Assembly (NCBI RefSeq): GCF_013340845.1
Contig: NZ_AP020335.1
Location: forward strand, 1,054,001 to 1,118,000
Reading direction: 5' to 3'
From: Hydrogenovibrio marinus
GTDB lineage: Bacteria > Pseudomonadota > Gammaproteobacteria > Thiomicrospirales > Thiomicrospiraceae
DNA: 64,000 nt
In this document: positions 4,240 to 10,993 of the stretch, piece after piece
Numbering within the stretch: position 1 is the first letter of the stretch
Layout of the letters: each line of letters opens with the position of its first letter
Notes under the pieces: model-generated
What the model was told of the DNA's origin: nothing
Databases searched by the model: none
The model's input: the letters and a program-made list of their open reading frames with translations, nothing else
Made by a program: the position numbers and the translations under genes

Positions 4240-4875
4240 ATGTCTTTAACGTCTCTTATTTCGGAATATGGCTATTGGGCCATTCTCGTGGGTACTTTTT
4301 TAGAAGGGGAAACCATTCTTGTATTAGGTGGTTTGGCCGCCCACAGTGGTTACCTAGATCTGACAACCGTCATCGCAGTAGCATTTATCGGTTCTTTGAG
4401 TGGTGATCAGCTTTATTTCTATATCGGGCGAGCAAAGGGCATGGATTTTATCGAGAAGCGCCCACGCTGGCACAAGCCGACCAAAAAGGTCTTTGATTTA
4501 TTACACCGTCATCAGGTACCACTGATTTTGGGATTTCGTTTTTTGTATGGGCTGAGAAGTGTGACGCCTTTTGCGATAGGCGCAAGCGGCATATCGCCAG
4601 TGCGTTTTTTGATTTTGAATATGATTGGTGCTTTGATTTGGGCGATTACCGTCGGTACTTTGGGTTACCTGTTCGGTCAGGTTGTTGAAAGTGTGATGGG
4701 CGAAATCAAGAAATATGAAATGTGGCTATTGGGTGGTATTGCGGTTTTGGCAATCTTGGCTTGGTTAGTGCATTATGTTTGGACGGGCAAACAAGCTAAG
4801 AAAGAAAAACCTGCTGATGAAACTGACACTATAGAAGCCCACAAGCCCGTACAGCAAAACTCAAATCAATCTTAA
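4240..4875 (+). CDS. DedA-family membrane protein
   Basis: A 211-residue multi-pass inner-membrane protein of the DedA (SNARE-associated/VTT) family. Family signatures: the N-terminal EGETILVLGG segment and the conserved FRFLYGLRSVTPFAIGASG region (residues about 100-120). The charged C-terminal tail is cytoplasmic. DedA proteins support envelope homeostasis, and some are undecaprenyl-phosphate or phospholipid flippases; which applies here cannot be told. Convergent with the lipid cluster, only 8 bases from its last stop codon. Confidence 0.85.
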   Translation: MSLTSLISEYGYWAILVGTFLEGETILVLGGLAAHSGYLDLTTVIAVAFIGSLSGDQLYFYIGRAKGMDFIEKRPRWHKPTKKVFDLLHRHQVPLILGFRFLYGLRSVTPFAIGASGISPVRFLILNMIGALIWAITVGTLGYLFGQVVESVMGEIKKYEMWLLGGIAVLAILAWLVHYVWTGKQAKKEKPADETDTIEAHKPVQQNSNQS

Positions 4876-4883
4876 GTAACAGT

Positions 4884-6074
4884 TTAAATCTGGTGTTGTT
4901 CAAACATTTGCGGTGCGTAACGATTCACCAGCCCAGAAAAACCTGAGTGAATCACTCTGCGATGCCAAGGTAAATGGCGGCAGTAAAAGGCTGTGTATTC
5001 CAGTGTCGGCTCACCGCCGCGCGCTCTTTTGAAGCCACCTGCACCAGAACTCAAATTCATCGGTTGCTTACGCTCATGCGTTAAGCGTAATAATACCGCC
5101 ATCAGCAATCTGTAAAGTCCTAACTCTTGCGGTAAATCCGTGTCGTAGCCAACAATCGGTGTGGTGATGATATTCTGTTGGGTAAACAATCCGATGGAAG
5201 CGATGATACGCCCGGTTTCATCAGTGAAACTGTGGAATTCAACCATTTCATTGTCATGCATGGCCTTTAAGAAATCTGTGTCAAACTGCGGGTTATAACG
5301 TGAATGTTTTTCAATAAAAAGTTTATGAAAACACTGTGCGATTTCTGCAAAGTGATGAGGCTTCAAACTTTCTGGCTTAAGCCAGGTTAAAGACGTTTTG
5401 CCAGCTTCGACTTTACGCAGTAAGGATTGATCTTTTTTAGTGTGATTACGTTTCCACCAGGTTTGATGAGGTTCGAACAAATAGACCTGACGTGCTGGAA
5501 TCAATAACCAACCTTGATCGGATAACGTTTGCATCAAGACAGGATTGTGAGTCGCATTTAAAGAACGAATACTCAACGAGTGGGTTGGGAAATCTTTAAT
5601 CAGACGTTGTGTGGTTTTATTCAGCTCATAAGGGTTGAGCTTGGGCAATAGATTGGTCGATACCAGCCAATTATTCAACGACAAGGTACGGTTGAGCTTA
5701 GCGAGTTTCAGAAAGCTGCCGGCAACACTCATGCCTGTGCCAATCAAGCCTTGAAGTAGAGGATTGTTAAGCAACCCCAGTTCGTCTTTTGCATAGCTGA
5801 TATAAGCAGTATAAGGCGAGCAGACATAGCTGTTTTCATACTCGGTATCATTGATGCTCATCGGCAAGAGGGTGTTGCCTATGGTTACCAGCTTATAGTC
5901 GGTTTGAATGTTGTCTATTGGCGTTTGGCGAATGAGATCGACATACTTTTCAGCCTGCAGGCTAGATAGGAACTCAATGGCTGAAGTATTCAACTCAGGT
6001 TCATGATGAGCGCTAGTAAGCGCTGCATCATGTTTATCGTTCAAAAGAGGGTGTTTACTGGTGATGATAGACAT
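4884..6074 (-). CDS. GNAT-like acyltransferase coupled to the BtaA-like gene
   Basis: A 396-residue soluble protein. The C-terminal half resembles GNAT-fold (FemAB/GNAT_6-like) acyltransferases: predicted beta strands around FHSFTDETGRIIASIGLF, then a helix (LYRLLMAVLLRLTHERK) and the signature SSGAGGFKRARGGEP. The N-terminal half is not recognised. The ATG at 6074 lies inside the end of the upstream BtaA-like frame (overlap about 20 bases), so the two are translationally coupled. BtaA is normally followed by the N-methyltransferase BtaB; here this protein takes that place. It may modify the homoserine lipid head group, but the substrate is unknown. An alternative GTG start lies at 6083. Confidence 0.65.
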   Translation of the reverse strand: MSIITSKHPLLNDKHDAALTSAHHEPELNTSAIEFLSSLQAEKYVDLIRQTPIDNIQTDYKLVTIGNTLLPMSINDTEYENSYVCSPYTAYISYAKDELGLLNNPLLQGLIGTGMSVAGSFLKLAKLNRTLSLNNWLVSTNLLPKLNPYELNKTTQRLIKDFPTHSLSIRSLNATHNPVLMQTLSDQGWLLIPARQVYLFEPHQTWWKRNHTKKDQSLLRKVEAGKTSLTWLKPESLKPHHFAEIAQCFHKLFIEKHSRYNPQFDTDFLKAMHDNEMVEFHSFTDETGRIIASIGLFTQQNIITTPIVGYDTDLPQELGLYRLLMAVLLRLTHERKQPMNLSSGAGGFKRARGGEPTLEYTAFYCRHLPWHRRVIHSGFSGLVNRYAPQMFEQHQI

Positions 6075-7359
6075 GGACACCACCGTAGATTGCTGAACGA
6101 TCTTTTAATGTCCAAGCACGGTTTTGTTCGATGTCGGTTTTCCATGGTGCAAGAATGTGCTCTGGAAGCTTGTCTTCCAAAGGAGACACTTCACCTGCGG
6201 TTCTAAAGACCACTTGAGCACCTGGCATGGCAGTACGGTTGACTTCTTGCCATAGTTCGGTCAATTGGTTTTCATCCATCCAGTCTTGTGCATCCAGGAA
6301 CAAATAAGAACTCAAACTATTGTCCGGCATGGCTTTTAGTCTGTCTGTCATGGATTGATGGAAGACGGCAACATGATCCAGATTTTGCTGAAGTGTGTCA
6401 TAGTGCTCAGCCATCAAATATCTTGGAACCGCAAGACGACGTTTTAAGTCATAGCTTCTATTGAAAGCCTGCCATGCGAAATAATTGGTTTCCAGAGGGA
6501 AATCACATGCTAGACGTCGAGCACGCTCTTTCATCAACTCGTGCATGCCTAGCTTCATCTGTTTGGATTCTTTGTCCATCTCATCAAATTGAGCGGGTGG
6601 GATCCCCAAGCTGTACATGACAATCGAACGGCTACATAGGAATTTCAATAGACGTGTTTCAAATACGGGTGCGACATGTTCGTTGAAGAGAGCTTGCTGT
6701 TCTTCGGCAGTGTGCGCTAGCATCACTTTGCTGATGTCATAACCGTAGAGTTTACATACCCAGTGAATCAAGCCGATAAAACGCCCCAACAAACCGTGGC
6801 GGTAAAAGCCATCTGTAAAATAGTGGATGCGAGGTTTTGACCAGAAGTTTTCTTTGGTTTCCCAATATTGTCGAGTCTTTTCATCTAGGTGTTGAGAAAG
6901 CTTACCGTAGTAGGTATCTAGGTTCTTGGTAAGGTCAGCTTTACCGAAGAAGTCAAAAAATGCTTCTTGTTCCAAGTGTTGAATCGCCGCTAGCTTTAGT
7001 TTGATTAAAGCAATATGCGCTTCGTTAAGGTCAACAACCGTAATGGATTCTGGTTTTACCGTCAGGTAGTTCAATGCGTTACAACCACCGGAAGAAATGG
7101 TGAAAACGTGAGAATGCTCGTCTAACCCTAGTGCTTGGATATCTACTTCAGGGTCTTCCCAGATTTGAGGGTAGACCAAACGATCGAACCATTTGGTAAA
7201 CAGTCTGTCCAACAAGCCTTTGCGGCTGAAAATGGAGGTGTTGTTGACAGCGGACTTGAGTAGTTCTTTAGTCGCTTTGGTTGGTTGTTCGTTTTCAGGG
7301 GTGGTTTCTAAGCCGGTTTCAACGGTTGGGCTGGATAAGCTCATGGTTCTCACTTTCAT
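6055..7359 (-). CDS. btaA: BtaA-like SAM:diacylglycerol 3-amino-3-carboxypropyltransferase (DUF3419)
   Basis: A 434-residue protein of the DUF3419/BtaA family, which transfers the aminocarboxypropyl group of S-adenosylmethionine to diacylglycerol, giving diacylglyceryl-homoserine, the precursor of betaine lipid. Family hallmarks: LVYPQIWEDPEVDIQALGL near residues 60-80, the SAM-fold stretch VFTISSGGCNALNYL and ITVVDLNEAHIAL. Three PhoB half-sites lie about 70-100 bases upstream, fitting phosphate-starvation control. No BtaB methyltransferase is seen in the cluster, so either the unmethylated lipid or a different head group may be the product. Start may be ATG 7359 or 7344. Confidence 0.75.
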   Translation of the reverse strand: MKVRTMSLSSPTVETGLETTPENEQPTKATKELLKSAVNNTSIFSRKGLLDRLFTKWFDRLVYPQIWEDPEVDIQALGLDEHSHVFTISSGGCNALNYLTVKPESITVVDLNEAHIALIKLKLAAIQHLEQEAFFDFFGKADLTKNLDTYYGKLSQHLDEKTRQYWETKENFWSKPRIHYFTDGFYRHGLLGRFIGLIHWVCKLYGYDISKVMLAHTAEEQQALFNEHVAPVFETRLLKFLCSRSIVMYSLGIPPAQFDEMDKESKQMKLGMHELMKERARRLACDFPLETNYFAWQAFNRSYDLKRRLAVPRYLMAEHYDTLQQNLDHVAVFHQSMTDRLKAMPDNSLSSYLFLDAQDWMDENQLTELWQEVNRTAMPGAQVVFRTAGEVSPLEDKLPEHILAPWKTDIEQNRAWTLKDRSAIYGGVHVYHHQ

Positions 7360-7427
7360 CTAAATTGCATTAGACAATAACTTAACCGTCAAATATGAAG
7401 AAACCGTGACCAAAACAAAGAAGTTAT

Positions 7428-7456
7428 ATGACGAATTTGTGATGGGAATATGACAG
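7428..7456 (-). promoter_or_regulatory. PHO box upstream of btaA
   Basis: On the minus strand three heptamers spaced at 11 bases: CTGTCAT (7450-7456), CCATCAC (7439-7445), TCGTCAT (7428-7434), each separated by 4 bases, matching the PhoB direct-repeat consensus CTGTCAT-N4-CTGTCAT. Located in the gap between the glycosyltransferase stop and the btaA start. Confidence 0.7.
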
Positions 7457-7497
7457 CGAAACCGAAAAAACATCTTCGGCTTGCATCAACAAAAAAA

Positions 7498-8526
7498 TCA
7501 GTCTTCGTTCCAGTCAATATAGCTCAGATTGCTGAGGAATTGATCTGCCGCTTCATCCCAAGTCAACCCGCCGATAGAGTCCGCAACCTGGCTGCGATCT
7601 AGCGTTAAACATTTTTCAACGGCGACTTTAAGGTCATTGTCCATCCAGCCGTTCAGCCCTTGGGTGATGATGTCTTTTGGCCCTGTCACCGGGAAGGCGG
7701 CAACCGGTAATCCACACGCAATGGCTTCAATGTTTACCACGCCGTAAGTATCGGTTAGGGATGGGAATACAAAGACATCTGCACTGGCGTAATAGGTCGC
7801 CAATTCTTCACCGAATTTGGCGCCGACAAAAACCGCATCAGGATAGCGTTCTTGGAGTTCTTCCAATATCGGTCCTCGACCGACAATCACCTTCGTACCG
7901 GGTAGATCTAAATCCAAAAAGGTTTCCAGATTTTTTTCCGGCGCGACGCGGCCAACCGATAGATAGATAGGCTTAGGAAAATCCATTTCAATACGGCGGT
8001 TTGGGTTAAAGGTATCGGTATCGACGCCACGGGTGACAACGGTCAAAGACTTGAAACCATGTTCTTTCAGCTCCTTAAGTGTTGACTCTGAAGGGACATA
8101 AGTCATCTGCCCCTTGTTGTGGAAGCGTCTTAATAAGGAATAAATCCAACTCGCCGGCACGGGAAAACGCTGATGAATGTACTCAGGGTATTTGGTGTGG
8201 TAACCCGTGGTAAACGGCAGTTTGTGTTTCAAACAGATGTTGCGAGCACGCCATCCCAAACCACCTTCGGTAGCGATATGAATGGCATCAGGAAGAAAAT
8301 CCAACAGGCGTCTTTCAAGGTTCTCAGCTGACCAGACAACCGGGATTTCAGGGTAGGTCGGCATCGGAAAAAATTTGTAATCGTTGGGCTGAAACACCTC
8401 GACAGTAATGTCTTTTTGCTCAAGTTCTCTGACCATCTGAGTCAGGGTGGTGACGACTCCATTTACTTGTGGTGTCCAGGCATCAGTGATTAAGGCAAAT
8501 TTACGAATAGGGGATTCAACATGCAT
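7498..8526 (-). CDS. GT4-family glycosyltransferase, probable diacylglycerol glycosyltransferase (Agt-like)
   Basis: A 342-residue GT-B fold glycosyltransferase. N-terminal ALITDAWTPQVNGVVTTL is typical of the family that includes alphaproteobacterial Agt and PimB-like enzymes. The C-terminal nucleotide-sugar half has LSVGRVAPEKN and the E-x7-E type segment DVFVFPSLTDTYGVVNIEAIACGLP. By context, divergent from a PlcP-like phosphatase, it probably glycosylates diacylglycerol released from phospholipids, making glycolipids when phosphate is scarce. Met at 8526 fits homologues; an upstream in-frame start at 8583 is possible. I saw no PHO box of its own oriented toward it. Confidence 0.7.
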   Translation of the reverse strand: MHVESPIRKFALITDAWTPQVNGVVTTLTQMVRELEQKDITVEVFQPNDYKFFPMPTYPEIPVVWSAENLERRLLDFLPDAIHIATEGGLGWRARNICLKHKLPFTTGYHTKYPEYIHQRFPVPASWIYSLLRRFHNKGQMTYVPSESTLKELKEHGFKSLTVVTRGVDTDTFNPNRRIEMDFPKPIYLSVGRVAPEKNLETFLDLDLPGTKVIVGRGPILEELQERYPDAVFVGAKFGEELATYYASADVFVFPSLTDTYGVVNIEAIACGLPVAAFPVTGPKDIITQGLNGWMDNDLKVAVEKCLTLDRSQVADSIGGLTWDEAADQFLSNLSYIDWNED

Positions 8527-8627
8527 CTTATTATTCTTTTCTTGAGTTCGCGTTAGGTGGGTAAGGTAATCGAAAAAATACACTAAGAAATGAAAGATTT
8601 ATGAAACCGATTTCAACAAAGTTGTTG

Positions 8628-8656
8628 TTGTCATCTAACCGACATTTAACTGTGAT
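8628..8656 (+). promoter_or_regulatory. PHO box upstream of the PlcP-like gene
   Basis: Three heptamers at 11-base spacing: TTGTCAT (8628-8634), CCGACAT (8639-8645), CTGTGAT (8650-8656), separated by CTAA and TTAA. This is the classical PhoB direct-repeat layout, ending 55 bases before the chosen start codon. Confidence 0.75.
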
Positions 8657-8711
8657 GAAAATGCAACTTTTGATGGTTAGACTGACGCAAATAATTGAGG
8701 AAGTGTGGATA

Positions 8712-9632
8712 ATGCAAGACCGACAAAAACTCGATAGTATGCCAGACTGGATGGCTTCCATTGCTAAAGACGATTTGATTGTTGCGGAAAATACGCACCA
8801 TCATCAGCATTATAAAACCATATTCATCTCGGATGTGCATCTGGGTTCCAAAGGGGCGAAAGCCGAGTTTTTGGCCGATTTCCTCAAATATAATCATTGC
8901 GAGACACTCTATCTTGTTGGTGACATCATCGACGGTTGGCGTTTGAGAAAACGCATCTTCTGGCCCCAAGAACACACTAACGTTATTCGACGTATTTTGA
9001 CGAAAGCCAAACGTGGCACAAAAGTGATTTTCGTCACGGGAAACCATGACGAATTTTTACGTCGTTATTCCGGTATCGATTTCGGAAACATTCTACTGAC
9101 CGATCAGACAGAACATCGTTGTGTGAATGGCGATCGCCTACTTGTGGTTCATGGCGATAAGTACGACAGTGTAGTGCAAACCCGTAAATGGTTGGCGGTG
9201 CTTGGAGATTGGGGATATGAAACCTTGGTGCGTTTCAACACCCATTTTAACAAGGTTCGCCAGTTGTTTGGTATGCGCTATTGGTCGCTATCTTCTTATG
9301 TGAAGCAAAAGGTGAAATCTGCCGTGGCGTTTATCACCGCTTATGAAGAAGCGGTAGTGAAAGATTGTCATTTGCACGGTTACCAAGGGGTTGTTTGCGG
9401 TCATATTCACCATCCTGAGATTCGTGATATCGAGGGGATTGATTACTACAACTGTGGTGATTGGGTGGAAAGCTGCACGGCGATTGTTGAAACCACTGAA
9501 GGCAAGATGAAACTGTTACGCTGGGTAGATATTGATCACAATACCAAAGCGGCATTTTCAAATGAGCCAGCAGGCGAATCTCAAGACGATGTGAGTACTA
9601 AAGCTGACGACAAAGAGAGCGTTACGGTTTAA
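8712..9632 (+). CDS. plcP: PlcP-like metallophosphoesterase (phospholipid phospholipase C type)
   Basis: A 306-residue calcineurin-like phosphoesterase resembling UDP-2,3-diacylglucosamine hydrolases. Metal-binding motifs appear in order: SDVHLG, GDIIDGW, GNHDE, HGDKYD, GHIHHPE. A true LpxH lies 0.5 kb downstream, so this is a paralogue. Together with the adjacent GT4 enzyme and a PHO box it matches PlcP, the phospholipase C that strips phosphate head groups from phospholipids in phosphate-starved bacteria. ATG 8712 is chosen because GAGGAAG lies eight bases upstream; the open frame extends to 8601 but would cover the PHO box. Confidence 0.75.
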   Translation: MQDRQKLDSMPDWMASIAKDDLIVAENTHHHQHYKTIFISDVHLGSKGAKAEFLADFLKYNHCETLYLVGDIIDGWRLRKRIFWPQEHTNVIRRILTKAKRGTKVIFVTGNHDEFLRRYSGIDFGNILLTDQTEHRCVNGDRLLVVHGDKYDSVVQTRKWLAVLGDWGYETLVRFNTHFNKVRQLFGMRYWSLSSYVKQKVKSAVAFITAYEEAVVKDCHLHGYQGVVCGHIHHPEIRDIEGIDYYNCGDWVESCTAIVETTEGKMKLLRWVDIDHNTKAAFSNEPAGESQDDVSTKADDKESVTV

Positions 9633-9731: not shown

Positions 9732-10118
9732 ATGAAACTTCATTGCATGCAATTGGTCAGCGAGACGGATGTCTTGTCGACTTCATACGAACAAGCAGAG
9801 TACATTGCGTCATTAGTCGCAAGGTTGAAGGTCTGTATTACCAAACAATTGGCGCAAATGGAACAGGCTGAGCTAGAAGCTGAGATGGTTCAGGATATGT
9901 CACATATCAGCCAAGCAGCGGTCTATGCCGGCAACCTGACGGTAGATGATGTGGTTTACGTGAAAGACAATCTTTTCCGTTGTGATTATTCCTATGATTG
10001 GCAAATCGGCTGGACATGCTCCGGCACGCAGGAAGAAGGGCGGGTGAAAGAAAAGGTTCGCTTTTCACTAGAGCCTGATGGGGCTTTGACCTTCAAGTTT
10101 TTGAAACTGGAACTCTAG
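9732..10118 (+). CDS. Hypothetical protein, 128 residues
   Basis: Small soluble protein with no recognised family. Residues 15-60 are predicted helical and charged (EQAEYIASLVARLKV... QAELEAEMVQDM); the rest looks like beta strands with two Trp-rich stretches (DYSYDWQIGWTCSG). No signal peptide or membrane segment. It is monocistronic, follows the PlcP-like gene by about 100 bases and is convergent with lpxH. The inverted repeat immediately before its start is the only regulatory hint. Confidence 0.55.
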   Translation: MKLHCMQLVSETDVLSTSYEQAEYIASLVARLKVCITKQLAQMEQAELEAEMVQDMSHISQAAVYAGNLTVDDVVYVKDNLFRCDYSYDWQIGWTCSGTQEEGRVKEKVRFSLEPDGALTFKFLKLEL

Positions 10119-10129
10119 GTCTCGGGAAC

Positions 10130-10879
10130 TTAATTTCCGTTTAAGAATAGCCATTCAATTTCAGGCGATTGTCCTGGGCGTTCAGTGACCTTAAGTAATT
10201 GGGTTTCTGGGCGCCAGTCTCCCAATATCCAACGGTGCTTTTCTACACCTTCGACCATAAAGGTTTGTTCTCCAGGGCGGTGCGTGTGGCCGTGAACCAA
10301 GTGATTGCATTCCGGATAGCGAGCCAACAGGCTTTCTACAGCGCCCTGATTCACATCCATAATGTTGTCCGCTTTATTCTGATTGTACTGCTGAGATTTC
10401 TTTCGCATGTTTTCGCCAATTGCCAGACGCTTGGCTTTTGGCAAACACAAAAACAACCATTGAATGACCGGATTACGGAACCAGCGGCGCATCTTTTGAT
10501 ATTCCTTGTCGTCAATACACAAGCTGTCGCCATGGCTCAGCAGGATTTTTTCACCATAAAAATCTACCAGGTTGGGGTCGCTGAGCGGTTGAATGCCAGT
10601 TGCCTTCCAGAAGGCAGATTTCATCAGAAAATCACGATTGCCGAACATTAAGTACACGCGAGTGCCTTTTTTTACCAGGTCAGAGAGGTGTTGAATCGCT
10701 TTGGGAAAGGTTTCCAAGCCAACGTCGTCACCCACCCACATTTCAAAAATATCACCAATCAGATACAAGGCTTCCGCTTGCGGCGCATCCTCTTCTAAGA
10801 AACGATAAAACGCTTGGTTGATCGGGTGGGTTTCATCCGGTTGTAAATGGATATCAGCGGTAATCAGAGAAAAGGGCAT
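10130..10879 (-). CDS. lpxH: UDP-2,3-diacylglucosamine diphosphatase
   Basis: Peripheral membrane enzyme of lipid A synthesis, cleaving UDP-2,3-diacylglucosamine to lipid X and UMP. Motifs: ADIHLQ, GDIFEMWVGDD, GNRDFL, HGDSLC and HGHTHRPG, all as in LpxH. From Met 10879 it has 249 residues, near the usual 240, and begins like E. coli LpxH; Mets at 10912 and 10975 are alternatives. It follows ppiB as in E. coli (lpxH-ppiB, divergent from cysS). It contains one 18-bp repeat copy, read as PNLVDF. Confidence 0.9.
   Translation of the reverse strand: MPFSLITADIHLQPDETHPINQAFYRFLEEDAPQAEALYLIGDIFEMWVGDDVGLETFPKAIQHLSDLVKKGTRVYLMFGNRDFLMKSAFWKATGIQPLSDPNLVDFYGEKILLSHGDSLCIDDKEYQKMRRWFRNPVIQWLFLCLPKAKRLAIGENMRKKSQQYNQNKADNIMDVNQGAVESLLARYPECNHLVHGHTHRPGEQTFMVEGVEKHRWILGDWRPETQLLKVTERPGQSPEIEWLFLNGN
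10559..10576 (+). repeat. 18-bp dispersed repeat, copy 2
   Basis: Exact AAAATCTACCAGGTTGGG inside lpxH; the sense strand reads the C-rich form and encodes PNLVDF. Confidence 0.85.
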
Positions 10880-10993
10880 GTAATGATTGTCTTTAGCTGG
10901 AATTCTAAGCATTCTAGCCTGAGAAACAGAAAAAGTTAAGTTGCGAGATGGGAGAAGTGCTCGGTTTGCCACCAAGCACTTTCTTCGAAGAGG

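Follow-up and report, generated by a model that had tools for sequence, protein, structure and literature searches.

The 64,000-nucleotide window analysed here (positions 1,054,001 to 1,118,000 of contig NZ_AP020335.1) comes from the sulfur-oxidising bacterium Hydrogenovibrio marinus, whose complete genome of 2.49 Mb is assembled as one contig. At positions 4884–9632 it carries a cluster of four genes, which is probably a PhoB-controlled, phosphorus-sparing locus where a GNAT-type transferase, instead of the methyltransferase BtaB, caps the amine of diacylglycerylhomoserine (DGHS), the product expected of the neighbouring BtaA. The ordinary part of this locus is PhoB-controlled lipid remodelling by PlcP and an Agt-like glycosyltransferase. 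What is new is the recurrent replacement of BtaB by a transferase of the FemX/MprF fold, and an unreported lipid is therefore predicted; no description of the BtaA–GNAT pair was found in the open-licence papers searched. The cluster comprises the following features:

4884–6074, minus strand: GNAT gene, encoding a 396-amino-acid double-GNAT-fold transferase, in the btaB position (family alignments, AlphaFold2 model, nearest solved folds)
6055–7359, minus strand: btaA, S-adenosylmethionine:diacylglycerol 3-amino-3-carboxypropyltransferase (DUF3419), start at 7359 or 7344 (PF11899, identity to Rhizobium BtaA)
7428–7456, minus strand: PhoB box for btaA–GNAT, CTGTCATATTCCCATCACAAATTCGTCAT (rank 1 of 127,944; kept in 30/32 loci)
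7498–8526, minus strand: GT4 glycosyltransferase, Agt-like, probable start at 8526 (listed open reading frame to 8583; Pfam and motifs)
8590–8607, minus strand: two-half-site PhoB-like box 5' of the GT4 gene, GTTTCATAAATCTTTCAT (rank 3 of the two-half-site scores)
8628–8656, plus strand: PhoB box for plcP, TTGTCATCTAACCGACATTTAACTGTGAT (rank 2 of 127,944)
8712–9632, plus strand: plcP, phospholipase C-type metallophosphoesterase, corrected start (Pfam, LpxH equivalog comparison, ortholog alignment)

All four genes lie where the initial annotation had placed them, with GT4, btaA and the GNAT gene following one another in this order on the minus strand and plcP diverging from them on the plus strand. 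The GT4 protein matches the Pfam models Glyco_transf_4 and Glyco_trans_1. Agt-type GT4 enzymes are marked by the motifs GRVAxEKN and FPSxTDTxG, with Asp replacing the usual Glu (PMC8231724); the translation carries GRVAPEKN and FPSLTDTYG, departing from GRVAxEKN/FPSxTDTFG by a single Tyr for Phe, and by this comparison the protein appears to be Agt-like. BtaA matches PF11899/DUF3419 over its full length (E 4e-105, profile positions 4–384 of 385, far over the Pfam cut-off) and is approximately 42% identical to the Rhizobium BtaA; its predicted activity is the transfer of a 3-amino-3-carboxypropyl group to diacylglycerol. The end of btaA overlaps the GNAT gene by 20 bases, as might be seen in a translationally coupled pair. 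PlcP, a calcineurin-like phosphoesterase according to Pfam and predicted to release diacylglycerol from phospholipids, has homologues that adjoin btaAB in other Gammaproteobacteria. The concern raised with the original proposal, that this phosphoesterase might be a second LpxH, was rejected: it scores 57 bits with the LpxH equivalog, for which the cut-off is 134, while the true LpxH is encoded by a separate neighbouring gene at 10130–10975 (264 bits). The start of plcP is most likely at 8712 rather than at 8601, since an in-frame TAG interrupts the upstream segment of an ortholog that is 96% identical.

Synthesis of the betaine lipid diacylglyceryltrimethylhomoserine (DGTS) needs both BtaA and BtaB. 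A search of the complete H. marinus genome with the Rhizobium BtaB retrieved generic methyltransferases only (best match 28% identical, E 1e-6), and, since the closest of these look from their sequences like UbiE and BioC, we rejected the idea of a BtaB hidden elsewhere in the genome. No convincing BtaB occurs at any locus with BtaA and GNAT, the sole match to the BtaB model being weak (E 2e-4) and located about 6 kb away (locus L062). Outside the family Thiomicrospiraceae, BtaB adjoins BtaA at all 19 canonical BtaA loci of a class-level sample of 370 genomes and is found at 28 of 28 further canonical loci of a phylum-level sample (Pseudomonadota); the GNAT gene is present at none of these 47 loci. 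A divergent DUF3419 group of six loci from other Gammaproteobacteria (L179–L184) has neither BtaB nor GNAT adjacent.

Within the family, BtaA and GNAT are encoded in the identical 33 of 63 genomes and are adjacent at every locus. All 33 genomes also possess plcP, which lies beside the pair at 26 of the 33 loci, 16 of them forming a co-directional btaA–GNAT–plcP run; family genomes with plcP only do not contain the GNAT gene. When GTDB genomes were scanned for GNAT, the same pair, again without BtaB, came to light in Undibacterium, a Burkholderiales bacterium, Vogesella and Verrucomicrobiota. In the BtaA tree the GNAT-linked sequences fall into two separate clades, each closer to BtaB-linked BtaA, and a single clade uniting them was rejected (approximately unbiased test, p 2e-6). 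The GNAT tree is compatible with one lipid-linked GNAT clade (p 0.26). A single origin is thus rejected for BtaA but not for GNAT, so two BtaA lineages may have acquired members of one GNAT subfamily by transfer, and the replacement of BtaB by GNAT, as read from these sequences, appears to be recurrent.

The initial annotation proposed that lipid remodelling at this locus is governed by phosphate, and the conservation of its PhoB boxes and the occurrence of similar boxes elsewhere in the genome lend support to this idea. Boxes were scored with a generic three-half-site matrix, built manually after the published consensus and untrained, on both strands of the window (127,944 positions) and on chosen stretches of the genome. 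The two three-half-site boxes previously noted ahead of btaA and plcP were recovered as the two best of all window 29-mers, with scores of 21.0 and 19.4 (next 15.9), and lie about 55 to 85 bases 5' of the likely start codons. The two-half-site box ahead of GT4, absent from the earlier list, is kept in two close relatives. In the family, a box precedes btaA at 30 of 32 loci, with a score beyond the 99th percentile of the controls, 312 promoters drawn from these 32 loci; the median score of the best site is 15.3 ahead of btaA versus 1.0 in the controls (Mann–Whitney p 5e-20). The letters of the box vary among genomes, and its motif and distance are constant. An own box of plcP is present at 10/10 loci with plcP opposite to btaA and at 0/16 loci with plcP co-directional behind GNAT, as shared transcription predicts. 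Strong boxes were also found at five of the six betaproteobacterial btaA–GNAT loci. The H. marinus genome encodes a PhoB equivalog within a phoU–phoB–kinase group, and PhoB-like boxes precede the adjacent gene for a PHO4-family phosphate transporter (L197 6501–6518 and 6560–6588) and the polyphosphate kinase gene ppk (L199 2931–2948), which supports the motif used. With half-sites spaced by 11 bases and PhoB encoded in the same genome, the locus is predicted to belong to the Pho regulon and to be expressed under phosphate stress.

Under the scenario that we favour, PhoB would bind its boxes at low phosphate and switch on three transcripts, and PlcP would cleave phospholipids to diacylglycerol. 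This diacylglycerol would feed both the Agt-like glycosyltransferase and BtaA. In one branch GT4 would glycosylate diacylglycerol; in the other BtaA would add to it the 3-amino-3-carboxypropyl group of S-adenosylmethionine, yielding DGHS. BtaB would trimethylate the amine of DGHS to give DGTS. As BtaB acts on this amine and GNAT holds the BtaB slot, the DGHS amine is the likely acceptor of GNAT, which would form an amide there; the product would be a homoserine lipid that is N-capped, free of phosphorus and not a betaine.

The donor of the capping group may be hinted at by the fold of GNAT. An AlphaFold2 model built from 49 sequences (mean predicted local distance difference test score 91.5) consists of two GNAT domains, and its nearest solved folds are FemX (Z 16.1 over 278 residues), Sbb17 (Z 16.0) and MprF (Z 15.0); in the same comparison the best other tandem GNAT reaches Z 13.9 and N-myristoyltransferase Z 11.8. 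FemX, MprF and Sbb17, a streptothricin synthase, all depend on aminoacyl-tRNA. We thus place GNAT with high confidence, on the basis of the predicted structure, as a double-GNAT protein closest to these three. Its residues Phe348-Lys349 are invariant in all 49 sequences, and we liken them, by motif and position rather than by residue-level superposition, to the corresponding catalytic features of FemX (Lys305) and DhpH-C (Phe328-Lys329; PMC12945691). The fold favours an aminoacyl-tRNA donor. Such modification has precedents on phosphorus-free lipids, namely lysyl-diacylglycerol (PMC10580965) and lysyl-glucosyl-diacylglycerol (PMC8893666). We tentatively suggest, as one possibility, that GNAT transfers an aminoacyl group to the DGHS amine, and that an undescribed, phosphate-regulated aminoacyl-homoserine glycerolipid (aminoacyl-DGHS) replaces betaine lipids in Thiomicrospiraceae, Undibacterium and some Verrucomicrobiota. 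The capping that we propose would also accommodate a different donor: GNAT could be an N-acyltransferase using acyl-coenzyme A or acyl carrier protein, so that the same amine would receive either a fatty acyl chain or an acetyl group and a three-chain or an anionic homoserine lipid would result. Acetyltransf_6 is the only GNAT-type Pfam model matched in the GNAT family (in 28 of the 49 sequences, with E 3e-8 at best); in the H. marinus protein this match is weak (E 0.02), with nothing at 1e-3. N-myristoyltransferase does align with the predicted structure, and GNAT N-acyltransferases are known to make ornithine and glutamine lipids (PMC11631085). Those enzymes, however, belong to PF13444, which GNAT does not match, the coenzyme A loop [QR]xxGx[GA] is not conserved among the GNAT sequences, and the highest-ranking solved structures belong to enzymes that depend on tRNA. 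An acyl donor seems somewhat unlikely.

The proposal that GNAT caps DGHS also has to face several observations that weigh against it. The activity, donor and product of GNAT are predictions, and a shared fold does not prove a donor. The Pfam models FemAB and DUF2156 (MprF-type) find no match across the GNAT family. The GNAT family extends beyond lipids, as homologues are also part of unrelated clusters, together with an ATP-grasp and a Rieske protein. The genomes of Thiomicrospiraceae are related to one another, so the 33/33 pairing does not represent 33 independent events. The verrucomicrobial btaA–GNAT loci lack a PhoB-like box under the hand-set matrix. Finally, BtaA alone would already give a zwitterionic lipid, so GNAT could act elsewhere. 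Indeed, unmethylated DGHS is already phosphorus-free and synthesis might stop there, or DGTS might be completed by a distant methyltransferase, generic ones being encoded in the genome, with GNAT serving the same stress response on another molecule, as its homologues in other clusters do. We regard this as a poor fit to the data: the nearest methyltransferases resemble UbiE and BioC, the occurrence of GNAT follows that of BtaA without exception, plcP-only genomes lack GNAT, and in two BtaA lineages it occupies the position of btaB. A conventional betaine-lipid plus glycolipid locus, implied by an initial annotation that listed the GNAT-like gene without accounting for it, is very improbable: plcP, btaA and GT4 are its known ingredients (PMC4796936), but a BtaB ortholog is absent from the complete single-contig genome and a FemX/MprF-fold protein holds its place.

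The locus can thus be compared with several known systems. Like the plcP–btaA–btaB cluster of Phaeobacter sp. MED193 (type 1 of Sebastian et al., PMC4796936), it brings PlcP and BtaA together behind a Pho box for the predicted synthesis of a phosphorus-free lipid from diacylglycerol, yet here btaB is absent, a double-GNAT gene stands in its place and the GT4 module is joined. The plcP–agt route to glycolipids in SAR11 HTCC7211, Agrobacterium and Pseudomonas aeruginosa (PMC8231724, PMC8528852) likewise has PlcP beside a motif-bearing GT4 and Pho boxes, but not the btaA–GNAT branch added at the same locus in H. marinus. FemX, the MprF synthase domain and LysX, which are aminoacyl-tRNA-dependent transferases, share with GNAT the two GNAT domains and, judged by motif and position, an invariant Phe-Lys near the C-terminus; lipids are the substrates of MprF and LysX, some of them free of phosphorus (PMC10580965, PMC8893666). 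GNAT differs from them in its low identity (~10–14%), the lack of a Pfam match and of the membrane-spanning flippase part, and its pairing with BtaA, and its use of the same donor would be an extrapolation.

The combined glycolipid and homoserine-lipid locus envisaged by the initial annotation exists here, though as one arrangement among several. GT4 occurs in 31 of the 63 family genomes, usually within ~2 kb of plcP, and this includes genomes without btaA (G006, G008). Since plcP–GT4 occurs without btaA, the glycolipid and homoserine parts (plcP–GT4 and btaA–GNAT) are separate modules, joined in H. marinus and in a few relatives.

The capacity for betaine lipids is inferred from btaA, and genomes whose BtaA is paired with GNAT would be mis-scored if the pair makes another lipid; a class of membrane lipids in marine and freshwater bacteria would then have gone unnoticed. 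If the tRNA-dependent step is real, a bulk phosphorus-free membrane lipid would be tied to the machinery of protein synthesis.

Several minor observations concern the neighbourhood and the relatives of these genes. A close relative is Hydrogenovibrio sp. JE_KL2, with BtaA 97% and GNAT 91% identical. A gene for a DedA/VTT-domain membrane protein (4240–4875, plus strand), convergent with GNAT and ending 9 bases from its stop codon, is kept in the closest relatives only. Between plcP and lpxH lies an open reading frame of 128 codons (9732–10118, plus strand), conserved in two close relatives and without a confident Pfam or NCBIfam match. GNAT itself receives no name from PHROGs or NCBIfam, and sequence searches with GNAT and BtaA against solved structures returned nothing. 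Away from BtaA, GNAT homologues recur in an uncharacterised biosynthetic cluster with an ATP-grasp protein (PRK06849), a Rieske oxygenase and often an F390-synthetase-like AMP ligase, found in Shewanella, Runella, Opitutaceae, Ralstonia and Lysobacter (L102 2589–10536, L097, L109, L128 and others). A contig labelled Synechococcaceae, which may be misassigned or partial, encodes a GNAT ~52% identical to that of the window (L083 5929–7149) and is without btaA. In Shewanella surugensis, two GNAT paralogs are encoded in one cluster (L102 5896–7026 and 8120–9283).

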